Translations under genes and position numbers: made by a program
Shown here: piece by piece, positions 4,667-51,222 of the stretch
Layout of the letters: each line of letters starts with the position of its first letter
How positions within the stretch are numbered: position 1 is the stretch's first letter
The notes under the pieces: generated by a model
The model's input: only the letters and a program-made list of their open reading frames with translations
What the model was told of the DNA's origin: nothing
Database searches by the model: none
Assembly (NCBI GenBank): GCA_951799425.1
Contig: OX637402.1
Coordinates: forward strand, 32,644,492-32,708,491
Origin: Ilex aquifolium
Taxonomy: Eukaryota > Streptophyta > Magnoliopsida > Aquifoliales > Aquifoliaceae
Length of the DNA stretch: 64,000 nucleotides
Direction of reading: 5' to 3'

Positions 4667-5854
4667 GGGCCTGCTTGGTTTGCATCTCAAAAAACAGTTT
4701 CTGAAAACTATTTTTGAGATGAGTTTTAAGAAAGTGTTATTAAAAATTTTTAGATTACAAAACATGTTTAGTTATATATTTTTGAAAATGGTTTTAAAGA
4801 ACAAAAATTATAAAACTTGTTTGGACAATAATCCACAATTTTCACCTCTTCGTCTCTCGGTCTCTCTCTCTTTCACTGTGCATCAAGACCACCCAACACC
4901 CACAACCACCACCAACCGACTACCACCCAAAACCCACAACCACCACCAACCGACTACCACCAAAAATCCACAACCACCACCCAAAAGCCACAACCACCAC
5001 CCAAACCGAGAACCACCCAAAAGCCACAACCACCACCAACCCACAACCACCACCCAAAATTCACAACCACCCGAAAACCACAACCACCAGCACCGAAACC
5101 CACAACCACCACCAAAACCCACAACCCACAACCACCGAAACCCACAACCACCACCCAAAACCCACAACCACCACCAAAACCCACAACCACCGAAACCCAC
5201 AACCACCACCCAAAACCCACAACCACCACCTGTGTATTGAACTCAGATATAGGAAAAAAAAAAAAGACACTAGAAGGACGGAGAAGACGCCGGAGTTGTT
5301 GAACCCAGAAGGCCGGAGATGTTGAACCCAGAACGCCGGAGAAAAAAATTCAGATCAAATCTGTGTTTTCGCCGATTGAACCAGATCTGAACCAATCGTC
5401 GGAGAGGTCGCAGTAGATGTAGTCGTCGGAGAGCTCCAGTGACTGTGTGTGGGTGTTTTGCCGGAGAAGATGCGGTCGCCGGAGAAGGCGCAGTCACCGA
5501 AGAAGGCTTCCGTCTGATAGAGTATGTGGAGGGAGAGAGAAAGACGGAGAGAGTAATGAGAGTCTGGGAGGACAAAGGCAAAAGAAGAAAAAAAAAAGTT
5601 TTTATACTATGGCTTGCTTTGCTTCTAAGAAAACTCGAAGGGGAGACCTCTTTAAAGAGTATACTGTATCTCCGTGTTTTCAAAGTTTTGGCAGAAAAGC
5701 TTGAAAACAAGCCCAGCTTGTTTTCTAGTTTTATACTTCAATTCCCCAAGTTTTCTGAAAATTGGAGAACAAAATAACAAACCAAACAGGTTTTGAAATT
5801 TTTTTGAGATTTGAGAACAAAAAACAGTTTTCAAGAATCAAACCAAACAGGGCC
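4667..5854. mobile_element. PIF/Harbinger-like non-autonomous DNA transposon with TTA target duplication
   Basis: The left end reads GGGCCTGCTTGGTTTG and the right end, reverse-complemented, GGCCCTGTTTGGTTTG. Both are flanked by TTA (4664-4666 and 5855-5857). A 3-bp TTA/TAA duplication with a GGSCCTGTTTGG terminus is typical of PIF/Harbinger (Tourist-like) elements. Subterminal inverted sequence extends inward (AAAACAGTTT and its complement near both ends). No transposase frame is present, so movement would have to be in trans. The interior holds a minisatellite (4880-5235) and a GC-richer block (about 5270-5560) unlike the A+T-rich surroundings, possibly captured host sequence. Confidence 0.8.
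4880..5235. repeat. ACAACCACC-type minisatellite inside the Harbinger-like element
   Basis: Tandem imperfect units of the type CCCACAACCACCACC and variants (CCAAAA, CCGAAA inserts) run for about 350 bp. On the plus strand they give Thr/His/Asn/Pro-rich frames and on the minus strand Gly/Val/Trp-rich frames. All these ORFs are by-products of the repeat, not genes. The C-rich strand and G-rich complement are strongly asymmetric. Confidence 0.9.
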
Positions 5855-20610: not shown

Positions 20611-21187
20611 TGATGGGTCAAGCCCAAAAGGCCCAAAACTATACTGAAGCCCAGTTGCAATTAAAGACTCAAACTCATGAAGACCCAGCAGGCCCAATGA
20701 GATTCCCAAGCTCAATTAAGTTCACCATGGAGCTACCTCAGCTTAGCTACAAGATCCAGAGAGTATTCAAGACCCCTTACCTCCTCTACCACCTTGGAAG
20801 CAGTCAAACGGGGACCCGGTCATGTGGGGAGCTCCTCAACGGTCACACCCGTTGAGGAGAATCCGCAAAGTCCACTAGAATAGCTGAGTATGGCCTCTTA
20901 GTAGCTCCATTCGGTTGAGGACCAAGTATAAAATGTAAGCCCCACCAACACTTGGGGGGCATCACCTTCTACAGAACACAAAACTCCTCTACCTCTCCAA
21001 TCTGTCACTCTCCGTGCACATTACTCACCGGAATCAATAAAATACCGGCAACCCATTGCCATTCCAAAGTGGACGTAGGTCATATTGACCGAACCATTAT
21101 AAATTCTCTATCTTTTTACATTAATTGCTACCTAAATTTCCAAATTACTTGACTAGTGGTGTGCAAAGTCAATTTTGTGCATCATCA
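20611..21187 (+). repeat. 5' LTR (577 bp) of the gypsy element
   Basis: Complete, TGATG...CATCA. It contains a perfect 10-bp inverted repeat (TCCTCAACGG, 6-base loop, CCGTTGAGGA; 20833-20858) and a TATA-like GTATAAAATG at about 20927-20936, which could be the LTR promoter. Its last 418 bp align with the 3' LTR. Confidence 0.9.
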
Positions 21188-21190
21188 GTT

Positions 21191-21207
21191 TGGCGCCGTC
21201 TGTGGGA
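21191..21207 (+). other. Primer-binding site of the gypsy element
   Basis: TGGCGCCGTC lies three bases after the 5' LTR, the expected place for the tRNA primer site. Its first nine bases fit the 3' end of plant tRNA-Asp (as in many gypsy elements); the following bases fit less well, so the exact tRNA is uncertain. Confidence 0.65.
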
Positions 21208-21250
21208 ATCGACAAAATTCTCATTTCTAAACACTTTCTCTGTTGAGTCA

Positions 21251-22831
21251 ATGACGATCACTACCCGATCGATGAACCAGCCTGAGGATAACCAACCACG
21301 AGAAGAGGAGGTTGCTCCTCCACCGGCCAATCCTGCCCCAAGTGCGCAACAGATGTTGGAGACCATGCAGGAGCTTGTGGCCCAGAACCAACAGATCCTC
21401 CAATTAATGCTTGCTGCGCAGGGAAGAGCACAACCTGGACCTCAAGTGAGAGGAGCTCCACGCCTTGGGCGTCAAGAGGCTCCCTACATGGAGGCACCCC
21501 ATCATGGCGTCACTTTTGGAGCTCATTTGGGCGCCCAGCCTATGGGAGCTCCTTTGGGCGCCCAGCCTGGGGGACCTCCCCATGAGGGACTCCAACCTCC
21601 TCCTCCTCCAGCTCCTGCTTCTCATGGCGGAGACCCTCCCTTCCATGAAGATGAGGGTGAGAATCAAAGCATGGGGCATGGGAGCCACTTTCATGACAAT
21701 TCAAGAGGAGCTCCCAATCACTGGGACGAAAAAATTAAAGAAGTACAAAATCAGCTAGGTGACGTCTTCAATGCCATGAAGGCGCAAGGACCTGAGACTG
21801 TGGACTATCTTGTGAGGCGAACTGACACGTCTTTCAAGCCGGACGTGGCGAACTACCCCCTCCCTTAAAAGTTTAAAATGCCATCGGTGGAGACCTTTGA
21901 CGGGAAGAAGGATCCACTAGACCATCTGGAGACTTACAAAACTCTAATGCAACTGCAAAGTGTCCCCGACGAAATCATGTGCAGAGCATTCCCAACCACT
22001 TTGAAGGGATCCGTTCGACAGTGGTTTGCCAAGCTTGCTCCGGCCTCTATTTCCTCCTTCGCTGAGTTGAGCAGGTCGTTCGTGTCGCACTTCATTGGAG
22101 GGTGCCGCCACCAGAAGCCCGTTACTCACCTGCTCAGCATAAAGCAGGACAAGGACGAAAGCCTGAGAAGCTACCTCACTCGTTTTAACAAGGAGGTCCT
22201 TTAGGTAGAAGAACCCAATGACAAGGTGTCCATGACTGCATTCTTGGGAGGCCTCCGCTCGTCAAGCTTCCTATTCTCAGTGATGAAGCGACCACCAAGG
22301 AGTATGCCGGAGCTACTAGTCAAAGCCCAAAAGTACATGAACACAGAAGACATCACGAGGGCTAGACGAGGTGAGACGTCCAAAACAGGGGAGAAGAGAA
22401 AGGAAAGAGACAGAGACGACAAGAAGGAGACCAGCAATAAGCACAACAGGACAGAGAGGGTACCTGTCAGGGACCGGCTTGGTCCTGCTCCTCAGAGGGA
22501 CCGACAAGCCTTCACTCCCCTCAACGCCGCTGTCGGGCACATCCTATGCCAGATCCAGGAGGACCCCGCAGTAAAGTGGCCTGGGAGGATGAAGTCTCCC
22601 CCAAACCGCAGGAACCCAAGCAAGTATTGTCGCTTCCATCGCGACCATGGTCATGACACCGACGATTGTTATGACCTTAAAAGGCAAATTGAGGACCTCA
22701 TTCAACGTGGACACCTTCGCCAGTATGTAGCCGGAAGAGGACAAGCACCGCCTCCACCTCACAATCAGGAAGATCCACATCCCATTGGAGAGATTCACAC
22801 CATTTCTGGTGGGCTTGCAGGAGGAGGATAA
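21251..22831 (+). pseudogene. gag (capsid/nucleocapsid) of the gypsy element, interrupted by stops
   Basis: One reading frame, opening at MTITTRSMNQPED, is interrupted by TAA (21866-21868) and TAG (22202-22204) and ends with a third stop, TAA at 22829-22831, but stays in the same frame throughout. It has an N-terminal Pro/Gly/Gln-rich part with repeated LGAQP motifs, a capsid-type gag domain (DPLDHLETYKTLMQL, AFPTTLKGSVRQWFAKL, LLSIKQDKDESLRSY), a basic Arg/Lys/Glu-rich stretch, and a zinc-knuckle-like tail (CRFHRDHGHDTDDCYDLKRQI). The single frame suggests the ancestor made one gag-pol polyprotein. The TAG is a C-to-T change from CAG at a CHG site if the ancestor had Gln there, which is inference. 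Confidence 0.85.
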
Positions 22832-22843
22832 TCTCTCTCTGCC

Positions 22844-24505
22844 ATGAAGGCTCATGCCAGGAAAGCTAGACACCTTGATGATGAGCGCCCACCCAAGGCG
22901 CCCAAGCATGGCAACAACGAAGTCATCTCCTTCTCAGACAAGGACTTAGAAGGAATTCAGCACCCTCACGACGACCCTTTCGTGCTCACCATGACTGTTG
23001 CCAACTTCCAGGTACGAAGGATCCTAGTGGACAGTGGCAGCTCTGCGGACATCCTATTCGCAGAAGCTTATGACAAGCTCAATCTGGGCAGGGAGAGATT
23101 CCAGCCCATAAGATCACCCCTCATTGGGTTCTCAGGAGAGAAAGTGTATCCACTAGGGTCCATCACTCTACCAGTCACTGCCGGTGCTGCACCTCGAAGC
23201 TCTATGGTCATGGTTAATTTTCTGGTAATCGACTGTCCATCTGCCTACATCATCATACTGGGGCGACATGCTCTCAATACACTAAGAGCAGTGCCCTCCA
23301 CCTATCACCTCATCCTCCGTTTTCCAACCCCTAATGGAGTTGGAGAAGTAAGAGGAGATCAGGTAGTAACAAGGGAATGTTATGTCTCCTCAATGAAGAC
23401 CAGGAAGCCACATGAGACATTGCAGGTAGAGGTCCTCGATCCCAGGGATGACGCCGCCACAGAAAGAGGAGAACCAGTCGAGGAGCTCATTCCAGTAGCC
23501 TTAGATGAGGAACACCTAGACAGGAGGGTGTACATTGGCTCTTCTCTCACTGAAGATCTGGCTCGCCAACTAAGAGACTTTCTCAGAAGTAACATGGACA
23601 TTTTTGCATGGTCACATGCAGACCTTGAGGGGATTGACCCTGAGGTCGCCATCCACCGCCTCAATGTCGACCCTCGTCACAAACATGTCCGCCAAAAGCT
23701 AAGGGGCGCCTCCACTGAAAGGGCCCAAGCTATGGACAAGGAGGTTAGAAAGCTGATAGATAATGGGGCAGTCAGAGAAGTAACATATCCTGAATGGCTT
23801 TCCAATGTGGTAATGGTGACCAAGACCAATGGGAAGTGGTGCCTCTGCGTTGACTTTACAGGGCTCAACAAAGCGTGCCCAAATGACAGTTATCCGCTAC
23901 CAAGAATTGACCTCCTCATCGACGCCACAGCAGGGCACGAACTGCTCACCTTCTTGGATGCGTATTCTGGATACAACCAGATCAGCATGCATCCCCCAGA
24001 CCAGGAGAAGACATCATTTATCACTCCGAAGGGGACCTACTGCTACAGGGTGATGCCCTTTGGGCTAAAGAATGCAGGGGAAACCTACCAGCGGCTGGTG
24101 AACAAAATGTTCCAGTCCCAGATCGGGCGAACGATGGAGGTCTACGTTGACGACATGTTGGTGAAGAGTCTTGTCGCAGCAGACCACGTTGACCATCTCC
24201 AAGAGACCTTCAACGTCCTATGGTCATACCACATGAAACTGAATCCTGAGAAGTGCGCCTTCGGCGTGGGGTCAGGGAAGTTCTTAGGTTTTATGGTCAA
24301 CCAGAGGGGAATTGAGGCGAACCCTGACAAGATCAAGACAATCCTCAACATGAAGTCACCATCCTCAACGGAAGAATTGCAGCACTTAACAGGTTCGTTT
24401 CAAAGTCTGCAGACAAGTGTCTACCTTTCTTTAAAATTATCCGAAAGGCCTTCGACTGGGGACCTGAAGCAGAGGAAGCCTTCCAGAAGCTCAAGGCCTA
24501 TTTAG
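22844..24505 (+). pseudogene. pol: protease and reverse transcriptase of the gypsy element
   Basis: The same frame as gag continues after the stop at 22831. The aspartic protease has ILVDSGSSADIL near 23020. The reverse transcriptase runs from about 23640: GKWCLCVDFTGLNKACPND, FLDAYSGYNQI, FGLKNAGETYQ and catalytic YVDDML at about 24142-24159. The last about 40 residues before the stop at 24505 are out of frame. A lesion near 24390, probably a short deletion between two TTAACAGG copies, shifts the frame; the proper continuation lies in another frame up to 24540. Confidence 0.88.
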
Positions 24506-24540
24506 CCACGCCTCCTCTTCTTTCACATGCCGCTTCAGAA

Positions 24541-24963
24541 TAAACTCTGTATTTATACCTATCTGCCTCCTCATCGGCAGTAAGCTCAGTCCTTGTCAGA
24601 AGCAGTGATGAGGGGGTACAAAGACCTGTCTACTACGTGAGCAGGGCATATAGGGGAGCTGAGGTGAGGTATTCAGAGCTAGAAAAGCTAGCACTTGCTC
24701 TGATCTCAGCAGCAAGACGCCTACGACACTACTTCCAGAGTCACAACATCATTGTTGTCACAGACCAACCCCTGAAAAGAGTCTTGGGAAAACCCGATGT
24801 ATCCGGCAGACTACTTAAGTGGGCAGTAGAACTCGGGGAGTTTGATATCCAGTATCAACCAAGGGCAGCTATCAAAGCACAATCATTGGCGGATTTCATT
24901 GCCGAGCTTACACCAACAAAGGAGCAAGCCTCCTTGGGCGCCCAGCCACCCTCAGGTGCCTAG
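24541..24963 (+). pseudogene. RNase H domain of the gypsy element, C-terminal remnant
   Basis: After a stop at 24541-24543 the frame reads LYLYLSASSSAVSSVLVR, RPVYYVSRAYRGAEVRY, then LEKLALALISAARRLRHYFQ and VVTDQPLKRVL. This is the RNase H that follows RT in Ty3/gypsy elements. It ends in ...LADFIAELTPT and then a GGCGCCCAG-rich stretch. No integrase (zinc finger or DDE core) is found anywhere in the element. Confidence 0.82.
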
Positions 24964-38575: not shown

Positions 38576-40420
38576 ATAAATGACCTTTGTTCATTATGGG
38601 TTAAAGAAACAATACAGTAAAGAGAGTCAAATTTAAAAATTGGATCTCCAACTAGAACTATTATGTGTATGTTCCAACTATTCTAGTTACTCATGTTACA
38701 AATGTCTCAAATAGGTTTATACATTATTCTTGGAATTTGGACAACCTGTCTATTTATTTTCTCAAAGATAAATAGGGTTTTCAGTTCTAAAAAAACCCGA
38801 ATAAAATTAGAATAATGATAAACTAACTAAAAAAAATAAAAAAATATGGATCAAATGATGTGTCATTAGTATTGTTGATTTTATTTTTACACATTTAAAA
38901 TTCAAATTTATTTAATTATATAATATCACATTATTTAATCTATATTTTTTATTCCTTTTTTGGTCTGTGCAGCACTCTACTCATAAAATTATCCCCTATG
39001 GGCATGACTCAAGCTCTCATCCATGAGAAAAGATTCATTACACCGCAATATCACGTGGTAATATTGACGTGATATCACTAATTAATAATATCAAAACAAA
39101 TAAATAAATAGAACTCATTAAAATTAATAACCTACCTTCCTTATAAGTAAAAATAACTACTCACCTTCTTCTATATAAATAAATAATTATCTAAGTAAGA
39201 TTCACCTTATTCACTTGATATTTTATTATTAATTAGCGATACCATGTCAACATTTACATTCAATATTTACTCGTCATCCATCCCCCCCCCTCCCCCCCCC
39301 CCCCCCTCTCTCTCTCTCTCTCTGTCTCCATCCTTGACGTTGGAAAGGTGTGAAATCCTTGTCAAGTACTTAGACTGGTAACTGAAATAGACTATTTAGC
39401 TTGACCATACTTCCTTGTCTCACTAACTCCAAATATTATTTCCCTAAAGCTGTGTCCACGTCATTAGCTTTCCATCTTCTCAATTTAAGTATGCTAAAAG
39501 ATTCGTCCAAATAAAATGAAAGGTTATATTGAATCTTCTTCTGAGATAGAATAACTCTTAATGTTTCCACAGAATTCTTATCTTCTCTTACAATATAATA
39601 TTTCTTTTATATATATAATAAGTTCATCTCTTTTTATTGTTGACGTGGTCGCAAGATCGATTGAAAAATAGTGAACACAGTGACATATCATAAAAATATT
39701 ATGAAATTTAAGTTTTTTGGAGCTTTTAATGTCCCCTAGTAAATTATTTTAAGGGGCAAATCAAACTATATATATATAGTGGCAAAAGATTTACAAAAAA
39801 AAATTATAAAAATTAAAATTGCATCTTGTTGGACATAATTTGGACCCACAAGAAGCTAATTATTGGGAATTTTATTCTCAAATTAATCCCATTATTCTAT
39901 CATCCAAAAGGAGTCAATCGAATATATAATTGCAACGAAAGATTGATTAAAAAGTAAGACTTGGATCTGAAATTAAAATAAATAAATAATTAACATAATA
40001 TAAATTATACATGAAAAGAAGAAAAAATAAAAGCATATTCTGTGGTGTGGGTCAGTCTTGTGTGTGAAAGTCTAAGCGAGACCTAGAGAGAAAGACCACA
40101 ACGCAACGTAGTCCCTACTCCTCTAGTTGTCCAGCCACTAATTTTTTATCACTTCTTTCTATACGCATTGTTCCTAAACCTCTCTCTCTCTCTCTCATCT
40201 CAAAAACAAGCAGCCCTACAAAGCAACTTGCTATCATTGATGACTTTAGGGGTCCATCGCTGTCGTTTAAGGCAAACACCACCTTCTTTTTATCAAGCAA
40301 CGGATGGCTATGATATACTTTTGAACATGCTAATAATAATAATAATTTTTAAGCAACAGTTAATATTAGAATTACTTGGCTAAAATAATTTTTATATCAC
40401 TTGTTTTTAGATAAAAAGAG
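38576..40420. other. Intergenic; simple repeats only
   Basis: A+T-rich. A C-homopolymer/(CT)n tract lies at about 39284-39322 and a (CT)n at about 40181-40196. ORFs at 40115-40300 and 40168-40383 cross the CT repeat and look accidental. Confidence 0.45.
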
Positions 40421-40424
40421 AATT

Positions 40425-43215
40425 TAATTACAAAGATCCAATATACATACATATTTACAACTAAAATAATGTCATATGACAATAATCTCCACTCTTATGA
40501 GTCACCACATTTCTCTCTAGAAAGTGTTTTTGTCTTGGCCCAAAGTGTATTCTATCAAACAAAAGTCTAATGGCCAATATGCTTAAGGGATACAATCGTC
40601 ATTACATGGGAAAGGCTGGCCCAGTAGCCCATCTACCATTCCGTTCCGACACCAGTTATTGGAAATTCTGGGAAGAGTAAAAACCAAAAATACTTACTTG
40701 GACTTAAAACCCGGCTATTAGTTTAATTAAACTTGTAGATAGTAAGCGCATTCATAATATCTCAACTGTCACATAATCTTACTGGATGAATTTATAGTAA
40801 TTCAGGCCATAATTTTCATTTCTAGTTGCATTTATCGCCAATCACTTTGGCTGCAGAACAAATAACACAAAGAAAACACTTTCTAAGTGTATAAAATAAA
40901 GATATTCTGAATGAGAAAGGAATATGAGAATATCTCTGAAAAGGTATATTATTCAATTCATTAACTCGTAGAATATAAAGGAGCAATATAAATATGAATA
41001 ACCAAAACCTTAATCGTTTACAAAACATAAACAAAATTCTTAAAATTACGAAAAATACCAAAAATGAAAATATGCGATTTTTCTAATTAACATAAAAACA
41101 TGTGTCGTCTGGACTCCAACGAAATTGACGACACTGAATTCAGAATCTCTTATAATTTATTATTAATTTCTAAAATTTTTCCTAAAATGACAAAAATAGA
41201 ATTTTGAGGGCCTAAGCGATGAAATTCGGTCCAAAGCTAAAGGAGCTCATGGCAAAGTCATGAGTCTTGATTGTTAGCCCGATCTAAATTAAACCCCACT
41301 CGTCCCACTAAATTTCAAGTCCGACCCATTTTGCCTTTATTATCCTTTCGTTATGCTTTGAAGACACAACGATCAATCTGTTTCAACCACTCTGCTGTTA
41401 CCTGTTTTACATCAACTTCCTTTTGCTGTTCCTCATTCATTTCAGAGAAAAATTAAGTATTAGACTCAAGCATGTAGTGTAGCTCTACTTTCTCGTTTTT
41501 GTCTTCTTGTTTGAGGAAACATATCCCACTTAAAATCATGAACTTTGCATAATTTGCAGGCTCGCAAACTATATGATTATATTATTTGGTGATATATCAT
41601 TTCTGAATAGGAGTATATAATAAAGCTTTCTTATTTTGGGGTAAGCCCCTAAAAGGAGGTCTAAAGTTGAAGGATTTAAAGGTGTCTGAGAAGAAGACAA
41701 TGCACTGGAGCAGAAGAATATATGCTTTCACAATATAAGGGCATAAAAATCCAACACAAGGGCCATGCTCTTCTTGCTTTCCAATCCCACTGAACTAAAA
41801 TAATTTCCTAATTTTTGTTGATTCCCTCATCTTCCACTTAATCTACTGGGATATGTATCGCTAGTTGTAGCACCATAGAATCACTCTTCGATGTTCTAGA
41901 ATCACAATTCTAATATTGCTCGGTAAAATGTATATAAAGTGTTTTAAATTTTTTTTTAGAATAACGCTTAATCCAGGAAAATATTGTACGAAGTCGGTTG
42001 AGGGTTATATAGCTAATTATATTCCTACTCCCATGCAGATTTCGTCACTTTTATGGAGGGGATAGCTAAGAAACAATAGTGGTCAGCTTATCTATGTATT
42101 TTAGGGTGAGCCTTTAAATGAGTCACGAATTACTGAGTTGACTCAGTTTGCGAATGATACATTTGTCCCACCTAGTTTAAAATTTAATTTTTTTGTTATT
42201 TTATAGAGACTGAAACTTGAATGATATCTTACTTAAAATAAAGAATTAGTTGAATAAGCTCGAAAGAAAATAGAGGACCGATGGAGGCATTGGCACGTGC
42301 GTCCGTCCATTATGAATCTGAGTGCAAGGCTGATACGGCATGCCTTGGTTTTTCTTTTAGAAAATATCAGGGGTGCTGACGTTATTTTACGATTATTCAG
42401 AGGGTGTTAGGATAATTTACTTAACAAAAGAAATGACTAGAAATAATTAGTTTGAGTGATTCTTCTAGTAAGTAAATATAAACCAAGAGCTCCATAAAAC
42501 ATTGATAGCCCCACACACTAGCCATCCTAAAGGCCAGACTTTTTCCGGAAATCTTGGCTTTTTGCCTTAGCACTTCAAATAAGTTTCATCCAAGTTCTAG
42601 GATGTTTTCAACATCAGCTGTGTCACATGACAATCAATGGTATTAATCGAGACAAAATGGTTGTCGAAGATTCTTGGGAGTTTGCAGAAAAATCACAAAA
42701 ATGACAAGAAAAAGAGCTTCGAAGGTAAGATGACACCAGTGTGGTGTCCATGTATGGATTTTCGATGCTCAAGTCAAATTTGTCAATTTTGGGTGAAATA
42801 TATAGTGTACTAAATGTGAGGAGTATTGGTTGCATACTTGGTTTATCGAGTATTGCTTTCTTGTTTAAGTCCGAAGGTGGATATAAACGTCAGGAAAATG
42901 GGTTGAAGATGTGATCACTACTAATTGTTGATCTTATTCTTAGACAAATTTCATTCTCAAGTTTTACCCATTCGAAAGTTTTTCTTAATTGGTATTCCTA
43001 AAAGTGTATAAACTCTGTCTTCCTCGAGTGTTGGGCCTAAACCTTTTACCCTGGACTGAACTCTCTTCTGTCGCATGCAAAAGAATGGCTATGCATATTA
43101 ACCCATGCGCTAGCCCAGGAAGAGGCATCATTGCCCTTTTGGAGACCCAAGACCTAAGAGCTCGGGGACCAAAAATAACGATGGCTGAGACAACCTATTA
43201 AATTATGACTTATGA
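40425..43215. repeat. Segmental duplication, copy A (about 2.8 kb)
   Basis: It matches 45480-48240 in the same order and orientation, with many substitutions and several indels. Shared blocks include 40425-40550 with 45485-45605, 40730-41460 with 45790-46550, 41550-42170 with 46610-47270, 42400-42620 with 47320-47890, and 42990-43215 with 48020-48240. It holds one monomer related to the 180-bp array at about 41040-41210. Compared with copy B it has an extra about 200 bp near 42180-42400 and about 340 bp near 42660-42990. No protein gene is recognisable. Confidence 0.88.
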
Positions 43216-43829
43216 GAAAGTATAACCGGCCTTTGATCAAAAAGTACTATAATCAAAAAATAAAAAATAAATAAATAATATTTTTTATCTTGTGAATGTT
43301 TTATTTTATTGAGATTAAAGATTCAAGTCTCCCTCCCTCCTCTCTCCTCCCCCCCCCCCCCTCCCAAAAAAAATAGTAAACTAGACTAAGGTCCCTCCTT
43401 TGGTGTGTAAATTAAGTTTAGCCCTAACGGATTTCTATTATACAAAAAGTCCTTATTTTTAAAAACTTTGAATATGGTCCCTATGTTAGTGTGGTTGGGC
43501 AATTATTGTACATTTATTATTCATTTTGCCCTCATCACATGATTTCAACATAAATTTGAGAGATGCGAGTGTACCTGTCTGACGATTTGTGTTTATGGAG
43601 AAGATTAGTGTACCTGTCTAACGATTTGACAATTTTCGAATAATTGGGGATGGTGTAAAATAGATAGTTGAAATGGTTCGGATGCATAATCGATTAAGAC
43701 TAATGGTATTTGATCCAGATCGAGCCAACAATAAAGACTCATCGCAATGCCATGAGCACTATTAGTTTTTCACCGAATTTCATCGTTTAAGCACTCAAGA
43801 GTCAAAACCCCGTTTTTTTTTCATTTTTG

Positions 43830-43935
43830 GAAAGAATTCAAAAAATTAATAATAAATCACAGGAGATTCTGAATTTATCATCTCTAATTTTTTTAAACTC
43901 CAGATGAAACATGCTTTTATTTTAATCAGTTAGAT
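43830..43935 (-). repeat. Inverted, partial 180-bp monomer at the left edge of the array
   Basis: Read on the minus strand, this segment has the monomer landmarks (CTAACTGATTAAAATAAAA, CATCTGGAGTTTAAAAAAAT, GATTTATTATTAATTTTTTG) in the order of the direct copies. It therefore points opposite to the array that follows. Confidence 0.8.
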
Positions 43936-45352
43936 TGAAATTATTTCATAAAATGAAAAAAATGAGATTATCGAAGATTTAAAAATTACAGAAAAATTAT
44001 TAAAAAAATAAAAAATTATAATCTAACTGATTAAAATAAAAATTACGTATTGTCTGGAGTCTAAAAAAATTGGCAACACTAAATTCGGATTCTGCAATGA
44101 TTTATTATTAATTTTTTGAATTCTTTCCTAAAATAAAAAAAAATAGGATTGTCAAAGAATTAAAAATTACATAAAAATTATTAAAAAATAGAAAATTACA
44201 ATCTAACTTATTAAAATAAAAAATACGTATTTTCTGGAGTCTAATAAAATTGGCGGCGCGGAATTCGTACTCTCCTATGATTTATTATTATTTTTTTGAT
44301 TTCTGTCCTAAAATAAAAAAAAGGGATTATCAAAGAATTAAAAATTGTGTAAAAATTATTAAAAAATAGAAAATTACAATATAACTGATCAAAATAAAAA
44401 GTACGTATTGTCTAGAGTATAAAAAAATTGGCGACGCTGAATTTAGACTCTTCTATGATTTATTATTTATTTTTCCAATTCTTTCCTAAAATAGTAAAAA
44501 TGAGGTTATCAAAGAATTAAAAAGTTAAACAAAAAATATTTTAAAAAATAGAAAATTGCAAGATAACTAATTAAAATAAAAGTTCGTATTGTCTAGATTG
44601 TAAAAAAATTGGCGACGCGAAATTCGGATTCTTCTATGGTTTATTATTAATTTTTCGAATTCTTTCAGAAAATGAAAAAAAATGAGATTATCGAAGATTA
44701 AAAAATTACAGAAAAATTATTAAAAAATAAAAAATTGCAATCTAACTGATAAAAATAAAAAATACGTATTGTCTAGAGTCTTAAAAAATTGGCAACGCTA
44801 AATTTGGATTCTGCAATGATTTATTATTAATTTTTTGAATTCTTTCCTAAAATGAAAAAAATGGGATTGTCAAAGAATTAAAAATTACATAAAAAATATT
44901 AAAAAAAAATAAAATTACAATCTTACTTATTAAATAAAAAGTACGTATTGTCTGGAGTCTAATAAAATTGGCGGTGCGGAATTCGGACTCTCCTATGATT
45001 TATTATTAATTTTTTGAATTCTGTCCTAAAATTAAAAAAAAAAGGATTATCAAAGATTTAAAAATTGTGGAAAAATTATTAAAAAATAGAAAATTACAAT
45101 ATAAATGATTAAAATAAATAGTACGTATTGTCTAGAGTCTAAAAAAATTGGTGGCACTGAATTCAGACTTTCCCATGATTTATTATTAATTTTTCGAATT
45201 CTTTCCTCAAATGCAAACGGGATTATCAAAGAATTATAAATTATACAAAAATTATTAAAAAATAGAAAATTACAATCTAACTTATGAAAATAAAAAGTAT
45301 GTGTTATCTGGAGTCTAAAAAAATATGCGGCGTTGAATTTGGACTCTCCTAT
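43936..45352 (+). repeat. Satellite-like tandem array, about 180-bp period, about eight copies
   Basis: The landmark ACGTATTGTCTGGAGTC (and variants) recurs at 44045, 44225, 44403, 44584, 44764, 44943, 45123 and 45299, giving periods of 176-181 bp. Each monomer carries AAAAAATTGGCGACGC-like, TGATTTATTATTAATTTTT, ATTCTTTCCTAAAAT and ATTATTAAAAAATAGAAAAT segments in the same order. Monomers differ by point changes and 1-3-bp gaps. The A+T-rich, nucleosome-sized period is satellite-like, but the array is short. The minus ORF 45050-45436 runs through monomers and is not a gene. Confidence 0.92.
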
Positions 45353-45412
45353 AAAATTTTGTCGGATCAACCATGATGAGTCCAAATAATGTGACGAAAA
45401 CAAACTCATGGA

Positions 45413-45460
45413 GCCGGCCCCAAATAATTGGGACATAAAGCTTGATTTGATTTTGTTTGA
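45413..45460 (+). mobile_element. Possible 3' tail of an RTE-type LINE
   Basis: GCCGGCCCCAAATAATTGGG followed by ACATAAAGCTTGATTTGATT resembles the conserved 3' terminus of plant RTE-type LINEs (GCCGACC...TTGGGA...AAGGCTTG, then a simple repeat). Only the tail is recognisable. The likeness is from memory and needs a database check. Confidence 0.4.
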
Positions 45461-45479
45461 TTTAATTTACCGATAAACG

Positions 45480-48240
45480 AGAATTTAATTACAAAGACCC
45501 AATAGCCAATATACATATTTAAAACTCAATTAATGTAATATGACAATAATATCCACTCTTATGAGTCACCACATTTCTCTCTAGAAAGTGTCTCTCTCTT
45601 GGTGACATCTTATTTTACTTTAAAAAAGAAATTTCAAAATGTATCATTTCTCCATTCCATCGAGCAGGAGTCTAATGACCCATTCTTAAGGCTGGCTTAG
45701 TAGCTCATGCACCATTTTGTTCTGACACCTGTTATTGAAAATTCTGGGAAGGGTTAAAACCAAATATACTTGGACTTAAAACCCGTCTACTAGTTTAATT
45801 AAACTTGTAGAGAGTATACGCATTCATAATATCTCAACTGTCACATAATCTTACTGGATGAATTTATAGTAATTCAGACCATAACTTTCATTTCTAGTTG
45901 CATTTATCGCCAATCAATGTTGCAGCGGAATAAAGAATACAAAGAAAGCATAGTTTCTAAATATATATAATAAAAGTAATTTAAATTCATAGAAAAATGA
46001 ATAAGAGAATATCTCTGAAAAAATATATTTTCAATTCAATAACTCGTAGTATACAAAGGAATAATTTAAATATGAACGACCAAAACCCTAATCATTCACA
46101 AAAAACGGAAGCAAAATTCTTAAAATTAAGAAAAAAACCAAAAATAAAAATATGCAATTTTCCTAATTAACATAAAAACACGTGTCGTCTGGAGTTCGAC
46201 GAAACTGACGATACTGAATTTAGAATCTCCTATAATTTATTATTAATTTTTGAAATCTTTCCTAAAACGACAAAAAGGGGATTTTAAGAGCCTAAACAAT
46301 GGAATTTGGTCCAATGTTAAAGGAACTCGTGGCAAAGCCATAAGTCTTGATTGTTGGCTCGATTCGGATCAAACATCACTAAGCCCACTGAATTTGGAGT
46401 CGGAGTACTCATTTTGCTTTTTTTTTTGTGATTTCGTTATATTTTGAAGGCACGACGATCAATCTATTCCAAGTACTCTATTACCACCCGTGCTACATCA
46501 ACTTCCTTTCGCTGTTCCTCATTCATTTAAGAGAAAAAGTAAGCATTAGACTTGAGCATGTAGTGTAGCTCTACTTTCTCGTTTTTGTCTTTTTGTTTGA
46601 GGAAACTTTGCATAATTTGCAGGCTCGCAAGCTAATAAATGGTGATATATCATTTCTGATAGGAGTATAAATATATATATACAAAATAAAGCTTTCTTAT
46701 TTTGGGGTAAGCCCTTAAAAGGAGGTCTAAAGTTGAAGGATTTAAAGGTGTCTGAGAAGAAGACAATGCACTGGAGCAGAAGAATATATGCTTTCACAAT
46801 ATAAGGGCATAAAAATCCAACACAAGGGCCATGCTCTTCTTGCTTTCCAATCCCACTGAACTAAAATAATTTCCTATTTTTTGTTGATTCCATCATCTTC
46901 CACTTAATCTACTGGGATATGTATCGCTAGCAGTAGCACCATAGAATCACTCTTCGATGTTCAATGGCATTGTCTTCACCACAGCTTCATTCTTGTATGT
47001 AATCCTCTCAGTTTCAATATTGCTCGGTAAAATATTTTGGGTTTTTTTCTCGCTTCATCTGGAAAAATATTGTACATAGCCAGTTGGGGGTTATATAGCT
47101 AATTATATTCCTACTCCCACGCAGATTTCGTGACACAACTATGGAGGGGATAGGTAAGAAACAAAAGTGGTCAACTTATCTATGTATTTAAGGGTGAGTC
47201 TTTTAATGAATCTTTAAATGAGTCACGACTTACTGAGTTGACTCAGTTTGCCAAGGATGCATTTGTCGCACCTAGTTCAAAATTGGACTCTTTTTAGGCA
47301 GGTGTTATGTACGGCTTACGATTATTCATAGGGTGTTAGGATAATTTACTTAACAAAAGAAATGACTCGAAATAATTAGTTCGAGTGATTCATCTGGTAA
47401 ATAAATATAAACCAAGAGCTCCATAAAGCATTGATAGCCCCACACACTGGCCATCCTAAAGGCCAGACCTTTTTTCCGGAAATCTGGCTCTCTGGCTCCA
47501 CTGGTAGGGCTGTTAGTCGAACGAGTCCGAGCCGAGTTCGAGCCGAGCTTGAAAAGCTTGTTTCTTAATCGAGCTTAAAAAATTGTTGAAATTTGGCTTG
47601 TTTAGGAAACGAACCGAGTCTGAACGAGCGAAAAACAAATCGAATCCGAGCCAAGCCCGAGTATTTGCACATAAACGAGTCAAGCCTGTCGTTTGAGCTG
47701 AGCTTGTAGGGCTTGTTTTCTAAACGAGCCTAAAAACTTGTTCAAGTTTGAGCTCGTTTAGAAAACGAACCGAGCCTTAACGAGCCGAACCCGAGCCGAA
47801 CTCAAGCCAAACTCGAGTAGTTCAGTTTGATTAACAGCCCTATCCACTGGCACTGGCACGTCAAATAAGCTTCATCTAAGTTCTAGGATATGTTTCCACA
47901 CCTGCGTTACTCGATCGAACAAATATTTTTGAGGGAAAAAATATTTGGTGTAGTAGTTATACTACGTAACTAATGTCACATGACAGTTAATAGTATTAAT
48001 CGAAACAAAATAGTTGTCCAAAAGTATATAGACTCTGTCTTCCTCGAGTGTTGGGCCTAATCCTTTTATGATGGACTGAACTCTCTCGTGTTGCATGCAA
48101 AAGAATGGCTTTGCATATGAAATCATGGGCTTAGCCCAAGAAGCGACATTGTTTCCTTCTTGGAGACCCAAGACCTAAAGAGCTCGGAGATCAAAAATAA
48201 GGATGACTGAGACAGTCTAGTAACTTATGATTTACGAGAA
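45480..48240. repeat. Segmental duplication, copy B
   Basis: Diverged copy of 40425-43215, same orientation, starting about 5.05 kb downstream. It includes its own single 180-bp-type monomer at about 46130-46290 and a private hAT MITE at 47505-47842. A block of about 270 bp (46680-46950) is far better conserved with copy A (41625-41905) than the rest. Confidence 0.88.
47505..47842. mobile_element. hAT-type MITE with 8-bp target duplication
   Basis: The ends TAGGGCTGTTAGTCGAAC and, reverse-complemented, TAGGGCTGTTAATCAAAC form the TIR. TCCACTGG flanks both sides (47497-47504 and 47843-47850). The interior repeats words of the GAACCGAGCC/CGAGCCGA/GAGCTCGTTTAG type in both orientations. The paralogous position in copy A (about 42560) has no element. 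An 8-bp duplication is the hAT hallmark. Confidence 0.88.
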
Positions 48241-51222
48241 AATATAAATTTTGACAAAGAAAAATTGCCGAGAGATCTCATTGGCCGATCTAGAATAATT
48301 GAAATAAGACTTTATTAGCCCGGTAAGAACTCTTATTTTTTCTTGGCAAACAAAAGGCCCAAAAATAATATTTCCTTTAACAATGTGTTATTCCAATTAG
48401 AAGGGAAAGTAATCTCACTTTTGTGCATAATCATTTTTTAAATACAATTCGAGCAATGCTAAATTAGGATAAATAGTTTTTTCAGGAAAAAAAATTACAT
48501 GCACTATTTCTCTCTTAAATGAAATTGCATATGGAATCTTCCCCCCTAGTCGCCATTCAATTTTCGTTCTTACTCTTTTTGTTTCTAAAACTTAACGGAA
48601 GCACATACAAATGTATTAATGGACCAAATTGGAGGTCTTAGGCCCACTGGAGTATTTTTCCTAAGTTAGATCATATAACTGGGCCAACAAACAGAAAAGG
48701 TTGGCCCATAAGTATGGATTTGTTACTTTTCCATTCGGGTTGGAAGAGGCAAGATTAAAGCCCACCCGGCCTATCAACAAGAATCATACTAATTCTCTAA
48801 TCAGCCGTTAGAACTCAAATCCACGTTAAAGTTTAAAAGTTTTCATCAACCAGTATCCAGGGATTTAACTCACTACCCAAATTTCTTTTTATTACTTTTC
48901 AGCTTTGCTTTTTTGTATCCATCTAGAGACTTCTCCATTACCACCATTGGCTCTTAGGCTCCCTTTTCCTTCTTGTTTGCTACAACTTGAAAACATAGTA
49001 ATTAAGCAGCATTTACCATTAAGAACCTGCACTAAACCTCTCCTAACTTAATCACAAAAGAAAACAATCACCTGTGTCAGTCAAAACAATTGAACAACAT
49101 CCTTCACTTCTAAAACAAGGGAATGTTACAAAACATTCATATTCGACTCGATACATTCTTTTTTTTTTTTTTTAATTTAACGATCAGGGATGTTCGAACA
49201 CATAAATAGTGAAAAATCAAATCATGAAAATAGCTAGTCTACCCATAAATTCCATATAAGCTGTAATTTATAAAGCAGAATGCTTAGAATAAGTTATCTG
49301 CAGCAATCATAAGGGTAAGGTACAAAAGAATGAGAGCGTGCGGAAGTGTGAACAAACAAAGCCTCACGTTTTGAATCCTAGATTTGGAGATGAGATTGAC
49401 AGAATCTTTCATGTTGGCCTATAAAGTAGTAACCGTGGCCTAGTTGATGATACACAATATGTACAACCAATAAATTATTACTATATTTTTTGCTATTTTA
49501 TAACCTTGAGAGAGAACTGGGTTCCATACTTCATTACTTCAACTTTTCTTAATCACTTCATTGGGATAAGTTCATGACACTATTTCTCGGTACCATTTCG
49601 AAATATAATTAGTGATTTAAATCTTTAGTAAATTTATTTATAACCATTGATCGTAATAAAGTAAAGTGAAATAATAAAATTTAATGAAAAATGAGGTATG
49701 ATACATAACAGTACCATAATTAGACCAAATTCTTTGACATCAGTTAGGAAAGTTTAAAATGAAACTATCAAATTACAAAATGAGATCTCTTAATGATACA
49801 CAACCCAAATAGAATCAAAACAGTTGAAACTCAAATATATTATCCCTTGAATGATTGGGTCCCGTACGTCAATCTTTTCAATGGGACCCCTTCATCCAAC
49901 ACTAATCCAAGAGATAATATGCATTTGGATTGCAATTTTTGAGGTCCATTTGGGTTGTGTAGTATTTTTCCTTTTAAAATATTTTCTCCATATTTTGTTT
50001 GGCAGATTATTTACAATGAACTCAAACATAACACATTATATATATGAGTCGCTTACTCATTAATGATGGATGACTTATCAAGAAAATAAATTAAAAAATA
50101 TATATATCGGAGGAGATTTGGATCAAAATTGCGTTAAATTAGGATGATCCGCCACCCATGGTTGCAGAACTTAGAGAATGTGCACCTATAGATATATAGA
50201 ATCTAGTTCATGTATACAGGTGAAGCCTGTAATATGGCAGCTCACTGGGGGCAAAACTCTTCTCTCTCTCTCTCTCTCTATGTGGATGTGTGTATGTGTG
50301 GCTATTTCTGAAATTATATACAAAAAAATGGTTCAGACCCGTCATCTCGATGAAGATTGAAGTCAGAATGTGCAATGACTTTTACACATTGTGTTCATGA
50401 TGTGCAATGACTTTACACATTTGTTCATGCCATTGGGTACATGTCACATTGCTAACCTGTATCTTTAGAAAGATATTGCAGTGGCAATCCCTCTTTGTTC
50501 ACACTACAATCATTTACTTTAGGAATAAACATTAAAGAAAGGGCCACATCGTTACAAATTCGATAGGCACTAAGTTCTCTTCAGCCAGTGGGATGTGAAA
50601 GCCAAAGAGAAGAAAATGAAAGATAGCCAACTTGTAGTCGTAGTGCTTTTATTTTATATTTCGAAACCTAATTAGCTCTATCTACAGAGGCAAATAAAGT
50701 ACATTTTTGTTTTGTGATCAGAAAAGCACTAAGTTCAAACTCATCATAAACTTTACAATGATAATAGTAATTTATTCCAACAAGGGTGATGAAAAGGACA
50801 GGTAATATTAATAAAATAGATTGAAATTCCCTTCACTAATTTTTTAAATTGTTTTCAAGAGCAAAACATTGGTGGTGGACCACCATTTTTTTTTTTTTGT
50901 GGGATGATGAAATTTGAATCCACAATTATCTGCGAGCACCTTTACCATTGAACTTCTCTTTCACCCTCTATGGACGACCGACCTTTTTTTTTTTTTTCCA
51001 GACCATCGACTCACACACACACACACACAAATATATATAGAATTTAACTTAATATGGATGAATATATAGAATTTAGCTGTTAACTGATTAGCTCCTTAAA
51101 TAGTAGGAAAAAAATTGCAGATTATATAGAATTAATACTACCCAAAAAACTTGCTTATGACATTACAATACGAAATAGGCCGAGTATAAAGAAAAACAAA
51201 TTAAAAAACGCCATATTTTCTC
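48241..51222. other. Intergenic between the duplication and the DCR-like gene; no gene recognised
   Basis: A+T-rich. Contains a 32-bp-scale direct duplication (TGTGCAATGACTTTTACACA type, 50370-50432), a (CT)n at 50261-50278 and an (AC)n at about 51012-51028. Short ORFs (49851-50063, 50178-50360) lack family features. Confidence 0.45.

Follow-up and report, generated by a model that had tools for sequence, protein, structure and literature searches.

Structure of the locus

The stretch of DNA analysed here (hereafter the window; 64,000 nucleotides of Ilex aquifolium, C12:32644492-32708491 in an assembly of 103 contigs that totals 800 Mb) carries genes for dihydrofolate reductase-thymidylate synthase, PPR and acyltransferase proteins, as well as a gypsy-like element (21125-24963) whose gag, reverse transcriptase and RNase H lie in different frames. 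A degenerate ACCACCCAAAACCCACA-like tandem repeat at 4888-5230 has long open frames on both strands. Between two segmental duplicates lies a tandem array on the plus strand (43939-45352), for which Tandem Repeats Finder gave a period of 180, 7.9 copies and a score of 1818. As described in an initial annotation of the window, a landmark recurs at intervals of 176-181 bp: eight direct landmarks start at 44045, 44225, 44403, 44584, 44764, 44943, 45123 and 45299, with spacings of 180, 178, 181, 180, 179, 180 and 176 bp. Ungapped self-identity at an offset of 180 was 0.563, compared with at most 0.395 among 500 dinucleotide shuffles. The repeated unit, here termed A, is present as a partial monomer m0 (43939-44044), the full monomers m1 to m7, and m8, which is cut off at 45352. 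We found no gene in the array, and its one longer open frame (45053-45466, minus strand, 138 aa) had no Pfam match.

Array monomers are 75-92% identical pairwise, and the highest likeness is found between monomers four apart (m1/m5, 91.6%; m2/m6, 90.0%; m3/m7, 84.8%); m4/m8 reach 77.2% and the remaining pairs 75-87%. Compared by halves, m0/m4, m1/m5, m2/m6 and the first half of m3/m7 are 88-95% identical, the second half of m3/m7 78% and m4/m8 70%. Likeness at an offset of 720 bp, or four monomers, spans some 550 bp, beginning at the left edge of m0 and breaking off after the first half of m3. It pairs 43939-44490 (right limit approximate) with 44660-45210 (limits approximate), both on the plus strand. 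We conclude that an array already in existence was extended by a single larger step. Within the array, C/G positions changed more frequently than A/T positions (45 of 266 cells versus 73 of 981).

The inverted monomer described earlier at the left edge of the array is also present, as a single A unit on the minus strand (43814-43946; landmark at 43896), with the strand switch at about 43939-43946. Its identity is 79-82% to the full monomers and 78% to the truncated last monomer; in the comparison that gave 62-67% for the flanking single copies, the inverted copy reached 73-81%. In a tree of window sequences it is the nearest relative of the array inside the window. Outward of it lies an inverted module of a second kind, B (43625-43800, minus strand). 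Kinship between A and B was not clear, with 12 of 300 shuffles reaching the observed score.

The stretch 43660-44230 is predicted to fold strongly (z -11.6 relative to shuffles), and a long hairpin is possible. A predicted hairpin so far below shuffles, together with a period near that of the nucleosome, could be read as a sign of function, with the array acting as a nucleosome-phased silencing centre or as a hairpin source of small RNAs. We consider such a role improbable, given that any inverted repeat yields a hairpin and that monomers only 75-92% alike give no sign of homogenization beyond the 720-bp step. The unit is a piece of a retroelement U3, described below, and the length of this piece accounts for the period of roughly 180 bp.

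To the right of the array, the interval 45353-45474 (plus strand) directly abuts the start of the right duplicate. Of eight comparisons with LTR parts, seven were at chance level and one was weak (outerR, 10 of 300 shuffles). We tentatively take the interval to resemble the 3' end of plant RTE LINEs or Au SINEs.

The flanking duplicates carry LTR sequence

The left (40414-43225) and right (45475-48247) segmental duplicates, both on the plus strand, align in five pieces. Each was stated to carry one monomer related to the array, and landmarks at 41100 and 46180 bear this out. Each of these diverged monomers is related to the array, at 62-67% identity, and the proposal that the array grew in place is therefore not refuted by a lack of relationship. 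Both lie within copies of a long terminal repeat on the minus strand, termed L in the left duplicate (40846-41414, 569 bp) and R in the right (45918-46500, 583 bp), to which the array is antisense. In L, an A-like part (41042-41203) is followed by the first 128 bp of B (41204-41331), the whole occupying 41042-41331 on the plus strand; in R, an A-like part (46122-46283) and a B-like stretch together occupy 46122-46401, likewise on the plus strand. A TATA-like stretch is found in L at 40984-40999, and A corresponds to the part of U3 just upstream of it. Homology to U3 extends over A and most of B; it begins close to the start of the LTR and stops just upstream of the TATA-like stretch.

A change-point fit on the mismatches between the duplicates placed a fast-evolving insert at 40845-41408, as compared with the limits 40848-41411 set by eye beforehand. 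The mismatch rate was 0.19 inside the insert and 0.058 outside, and the likelihood gain was 16.2 versus at most 8.7 in 60 permutations run on a coarser grid. Differences comprised 79 transitions and 26 transversions in the insert, and 16 and 15, respectively, in the flanks. Copies elsewhere in the genome shifted the LTR start 3 bp outward, whereupon a candidate TTGA target duplication around the window LTRs was dropped. With no matching target duplication at either L or R, we treat both as LTR sequence rather than as intact insertions. A coding remnant at the LTR edge was considered and rejected on account of a stop within the frame in R.

Between L and R, the K2P distance is 0.22 in the LTR and 0.083 outside it. 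Within the array it is 0.09 for m1/m5 and 0.11 for m2/m6, and 0.21 on average for other pairs. If the array mutated at the rate of the LTR, its main growth would be about as old as the duplication of the blocks and the 720-bp step would be younger; at the rate of the flanks, growth would predate the block duplication. Growth of the array is not recent.

Two further features of the duplicates were observed. A 283-bp stretch (41614-41896 and 46680-46962) is 98% identical between them, as compared with 81% for the nearby LTR, and may represent either a conserved element or a recent gene conversion. On neither strand did 41614-41896 fold better than its shuffles, and a conserved RNA was rejected as a candidate, since nothing in the window reached the gathering score of an Rfam model. 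The right duplicate alone contains an insert at 47505-47842, flanked by an 8-bp target duplication, TCCACTGG, and absent from the left duplicate. Its ends, TAGGGCTGTTA, with 17 of 25 terminal bases matching, identify a MITE, which we take to belong to the hAT-like superfamily.

The LTR belongs to a dispersed family

The element represented by L is dispersed in the genome. The best 40 of 395 candidates were scored, and removal of two rows falling in the window left 38 copies outside it, of which 23 begin at query base 5-19, 9 end at 564-566 and 2 do both. Eight fetched copies measure 572-583 bp; seven start with TG (TA in L054) and seven end with CA (the end of L053 is shifted), and their flanks appear unrelated by eye. 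A 5-bp target duplication is exact in two of the eight (L055 and L058) and matches at four of five bases in L054, L056 and L057. In L054 this is probably due to chance, since a purine tract precedes the LTR. No target duplication was seen in L051 or L052, nor in L053 unless its end is shifted.

L052 and L054 have in common a purine-rich tract directly before the LTR. Upstream of L052 lies a reverse transcriptase followed by RNase H, an order that fits Ty3/gypsy elements. A putative integrase was recognized by eye only, and the two pieces tried had no Pfam match. The stretch upstream of L054 (L059) carries a gag gene on the opposite strand and has no bearing on domain order. One exact pattern for a tRNA-Met primer site beside the LTR end gave no match, a weak test given that the copies end differently; searches of viral and prokaryote collections with one exact pattern gave no match in either.

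B corresponds to the 5' part of the U3 of this LTR. According to a reading of the genome copies by eye, it starts with the first bases of the LTR, lacks about 67 bp internally and carries about 26 bp upstream. L contains the first 128 bp of B. When the initial 112-127 bp of L and R were aligned with 43655-43710, the scores were at chance level (61 and 70 of 300 shuffles), so that the placement of the LTR start in B rests on the by-eye comparison of genome copies. Likewise, the middle copy gave no support for placing the LTR start at 43655. A simple inversion of an array within a sense LTR was rejected, by reasoning that the truncation points do not fit.

Arrays of A, with or without B, occur at many loci

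The array query matches at least 119 places in the genome (best 40 of 299 candidates scored). From these matches we compiled by hand 21 array loci, the window included, and left out 15 places with matches summing to less than 300 bp, at least one of which is an LTR copy (C1:19.546 Mb). All 20 fetched loci contain A, and 10 of the 20 contain B, which in those 10 adjoins or separates runs of A and in places forms units of about 345 bp. The largest fetched loci are L033 and L041, with 35 and 33 monomer hits, some of them partial. Within loci with at least four copies, identity is 69-85%, partial copies included. The family thus consists of monomers homologous to an identifiable part of an LTR, in head-to-tail arrays at several loci, as in other LTR-derived tandem repeats. 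These are short dispersed arrays and not a classical satellite, long homogenized arrays being absent among the 20 fetched regions.

R-U5 was not detected in the 20 fetched loci with their flanks, either by BLAST with the L copy or with a profile built from ten LTRs, which matched only the two LTRs in the window. Repeats of the Ogre type, which derive from a 3'UTR and would lie between pol and the 3' LTR, were rejected as an explanation, given that R-U5 was not matched in these 20 loci. Five stretches neighbouring array loci were tested as candidate LTR sequence and none was LTR. With A and B masked, 29 matches remained among the 21 sequences, and most loci share nothing near the array. Exceptions are a stretch of about 180 bp near the arrays of L036, L037 and L043, and 217-288 bp common to L038 and L045. 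As these short neighbouring stretches are common to a few loci, a carrier element is possible for some arrays.

Further observations concern the surroundings of individual loci. The neighbour common to L036, L037 and L043 is MITE-like, with ends GGGGTGTT...AACACCCC in L036 (2496-3062). A 748-bp block that is 97% identical is present in L034 (772-1519) and L036 (4664-5410), loci about 30 kb apart on contig C3. The window stretch 43379-43604 shows a weak likeness to the flank of L041 (67.7% over 186 bp and 86% over 37 bp), and L041 is the sole locus among the 20 fetched that matches the flanks of the window array outside the B module. In literature searches, no listed paper describes the family in its title or abstract, a negative that carries little weight.

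Monomer trees and the origin of the window array

In a tree of sampled monomers, 171 of 171 array monomers and none of 10 LTR monomers fall into one clade, with a support of 0.876; the bootstrap value of the array clade was 86 in a subset of 69 sequences. With moderate support, the sampled array monomers thus appear to descend from a common ancestor of their own, separate from the sampled LTRs. Mean identity between array and LTR monomers is 66.6% and the best value 78.0%, and so no near parent LTR is seen among the 10 LTR copies compared.

These trees bear directly on the earlier proposal that the array was born locally, having grown in place from the monomer of the flanking duplicates. Homology of the flanking monomers to the array, the part of the proposal that stands, is in its favour. 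However, L as sister of the array was rejected (p-AU 5e-5, in a window-only test with L alone), as was a tree that joins both L and R to the window array (p-AU 0.0003). In addition, arrays of the same family occur at many other loci, where the closest relatives of the window monomers reach 85-89% identity, as compared with 62-67% for L and R. Local birth from the flanking monomers is thus refuted by the tree tests, and we regard it as extremely improbable; growth in place from an imported founder survives.

Alternatively, the array could have arrived preformed, by ectopic exchange or on a carrier, with only the 720-bp step added locally. The nearest neighbour lies in the same locus for just 38 of 168 array monomers, and the free maximum-likelihood tree, which is the best, leaves the window monomers ungrouped, as preformed arrival would predict. 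The nearest-neighbour count, however, is biased towards the pool outside the locus, which is larger, and a single clade of window monomers is not rejected (p-AU 0.43). Window monomers are also somewhat more alike than monomers taken from different loci, with a mean identity of 0.848 for full-length copies versus 0.812 between loci, and 0.844 among themselves versus 0.799 to other loci. Seven monomers drawn from seven loci reached the window mean in 3 of 2000 draws (draw mean 0.764), a lenient control in that the pool holds partial copies beside B. In loci with at least four copies, identity is mostly slightly higher within than between loci, and lower in L036, L043 and L050. On balance, we give preformed arrival a little less than an even chance.

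Strand switches arose at different positions

A strand switch inside the array is present in 3 of the 21 loci, namely the window, L033 and L037. In addition, the array-query search gave an inverted match of 33 bases at a C8 locus, which the profile search did not report. These switches, the inverted left edge of the window array and the strong predicted fold of 43660-44230 would fit a foldback transposon with tandem repeats in inverted arms, as in Tetris of Drosophila virilis. By contrast, the switch junctions in the three loci fall at different monomer phases (147|74, 117|108 and 148|0), so that they look like separate events and not like parts of one shared foldback element. Moreover, the right side of the window array has no clear outer module (outerL, 73 of 300 shuffles; outerR, 10 of 300), flanks are mostly unshared among array loci after masking of A and B, and common inverted ends were not encountered among them. 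A foldback element is consequently very unlikely here.

Longer arrays mostly lie near contig ends

Within the outer 10% of a contig we found 16 of the 21 array loci but only 1 of the 38 LTR copies (p 4.6e-6, with sizes interpolated for seven contigs). When only contigs of known size were considered, the counts were 16 of 21 and 0 of 25 (p 1.7e-5); when array loci within 2 Mb of each other were collapsed, 10 of 14 were near an end (p 0.0006). Among the short places left out of the compilation (<300 bp), 5 of 15 lie within 10% of an end, with two contig sizes interpolated, so that it is the longer arrays that show the distal bias; over all 36 places the bias is weaker (21 of 36). These sets comprise the best-scored matches, and contig ends may not be chromosome ends.

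Discussion

We propose that the window array belongs to a family of tandem repeats that is dispersed in the genome and built from U3 pieces of a Ty3/gypsy-like LTR, a reading that we consider quite probable. In the course of events that we envisage, an LTR would have duplicated its U3 in tandem, through template switching or unequal exchange, giving rise to the A+B unit of about 345 bp, from which loss of B would have produced the A-only unit of 180 bp. We found no intermediate LTR with a U3 array in place. The pieces would have spread afterwards, with arrays mostly in distal regions, and a B-A piece or short array would have arrived at the window locus, where a strand switch may have inverted its left end. 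The 720-bp step was then added, possibly by unequal exchange, and the array would have decayed thereafter.

Tandem repeats derived from LTRs or UTRs are well established, according to the cited passages of two reviews (PMC12628747, PMC9659126). In maize, CRM1TR and CRM4TR arose from a piece of a Ty3/gypsy LTR in at least two separate events; as described in the cited passages, both derive from centromeric elements and include UTR parts, CRM4TR starts in U3 and also includes the TATA box, and both are 97-98% like their living parents (PMC3648361). The holly array is alike in being a tandem repeat from a piece of a Ty3/gypsy LTR, but comprises U3 only, is about 67% like the sampled LTRs, and is short, dispersed and mostly distal. 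The RPCS satellite of rodents has a 348-bp monomer that resembles an LTR U3 and keeps the TATA box and other LTR signals (PMC3648361). It shares a U3-like monomer with the holly array, although it is an animal satellite, and A/B units are not described in the cited passage.

The Ogre satellites of Lathyrus sativus derive from the 3'UTR, with repeats inside the element, and form long arrays in primary constrictions, according to the cited part of PMC7004042. Like the holly family, they include short arrays of retroelement origin at scattered sites of a plant genome, whereas in holly the source is the LTR itself and loci with several monomers are found towards contig ends. VaccSat3 and VaccSat7 of Vaccinium likewise form very short dispersed arrays and are thought to be parts of mobile elements, but the VaccSat3 monomer is 111 bp, and a relation to an LTR U3 is not seen in the cited passages (PMC7290377). 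TIR-220 of Tetris, the repeat of a foldback-like DNA transposon with defined ends in the cited passage (PMC4079207), is similar to the holly monomer in length, mobile-element origin and inverted arrangement, but the holly arrays have no such shared ends. LTR-derived tandem repeats are thus already known, and what is new here is a further member in an unusual location.

The cited part of PMC7004042 treats the genomic places where such arrays start and persist as an open question. For holly, we tentatively raise the idea, which we consider rather doubtful at present, that the U3 became a self-standing library of repeats, with arrays spreading and persisting at a distance from the parent LTRs, in distal and probably recombining regions. 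What disperses may be just the promoter-proximal part, once it is free of the TATA box and R-U5. The results also illustrate that a single-window view can take a dispersed repeat for a local birth. A single assembly here contains about 20 array loci, both of the A+B and of the A-only kind, along with independent strand switches and an LTR family related to the arrays, and the position of multi-monomer loci near contig ends versus that of the interior scored LTR copies makes the question testable across species. If true, distal persistence in holly would be the opposite of the situation in Lathyrus, in which primary constrictions are the sites where arrays of retroelement origin expand.
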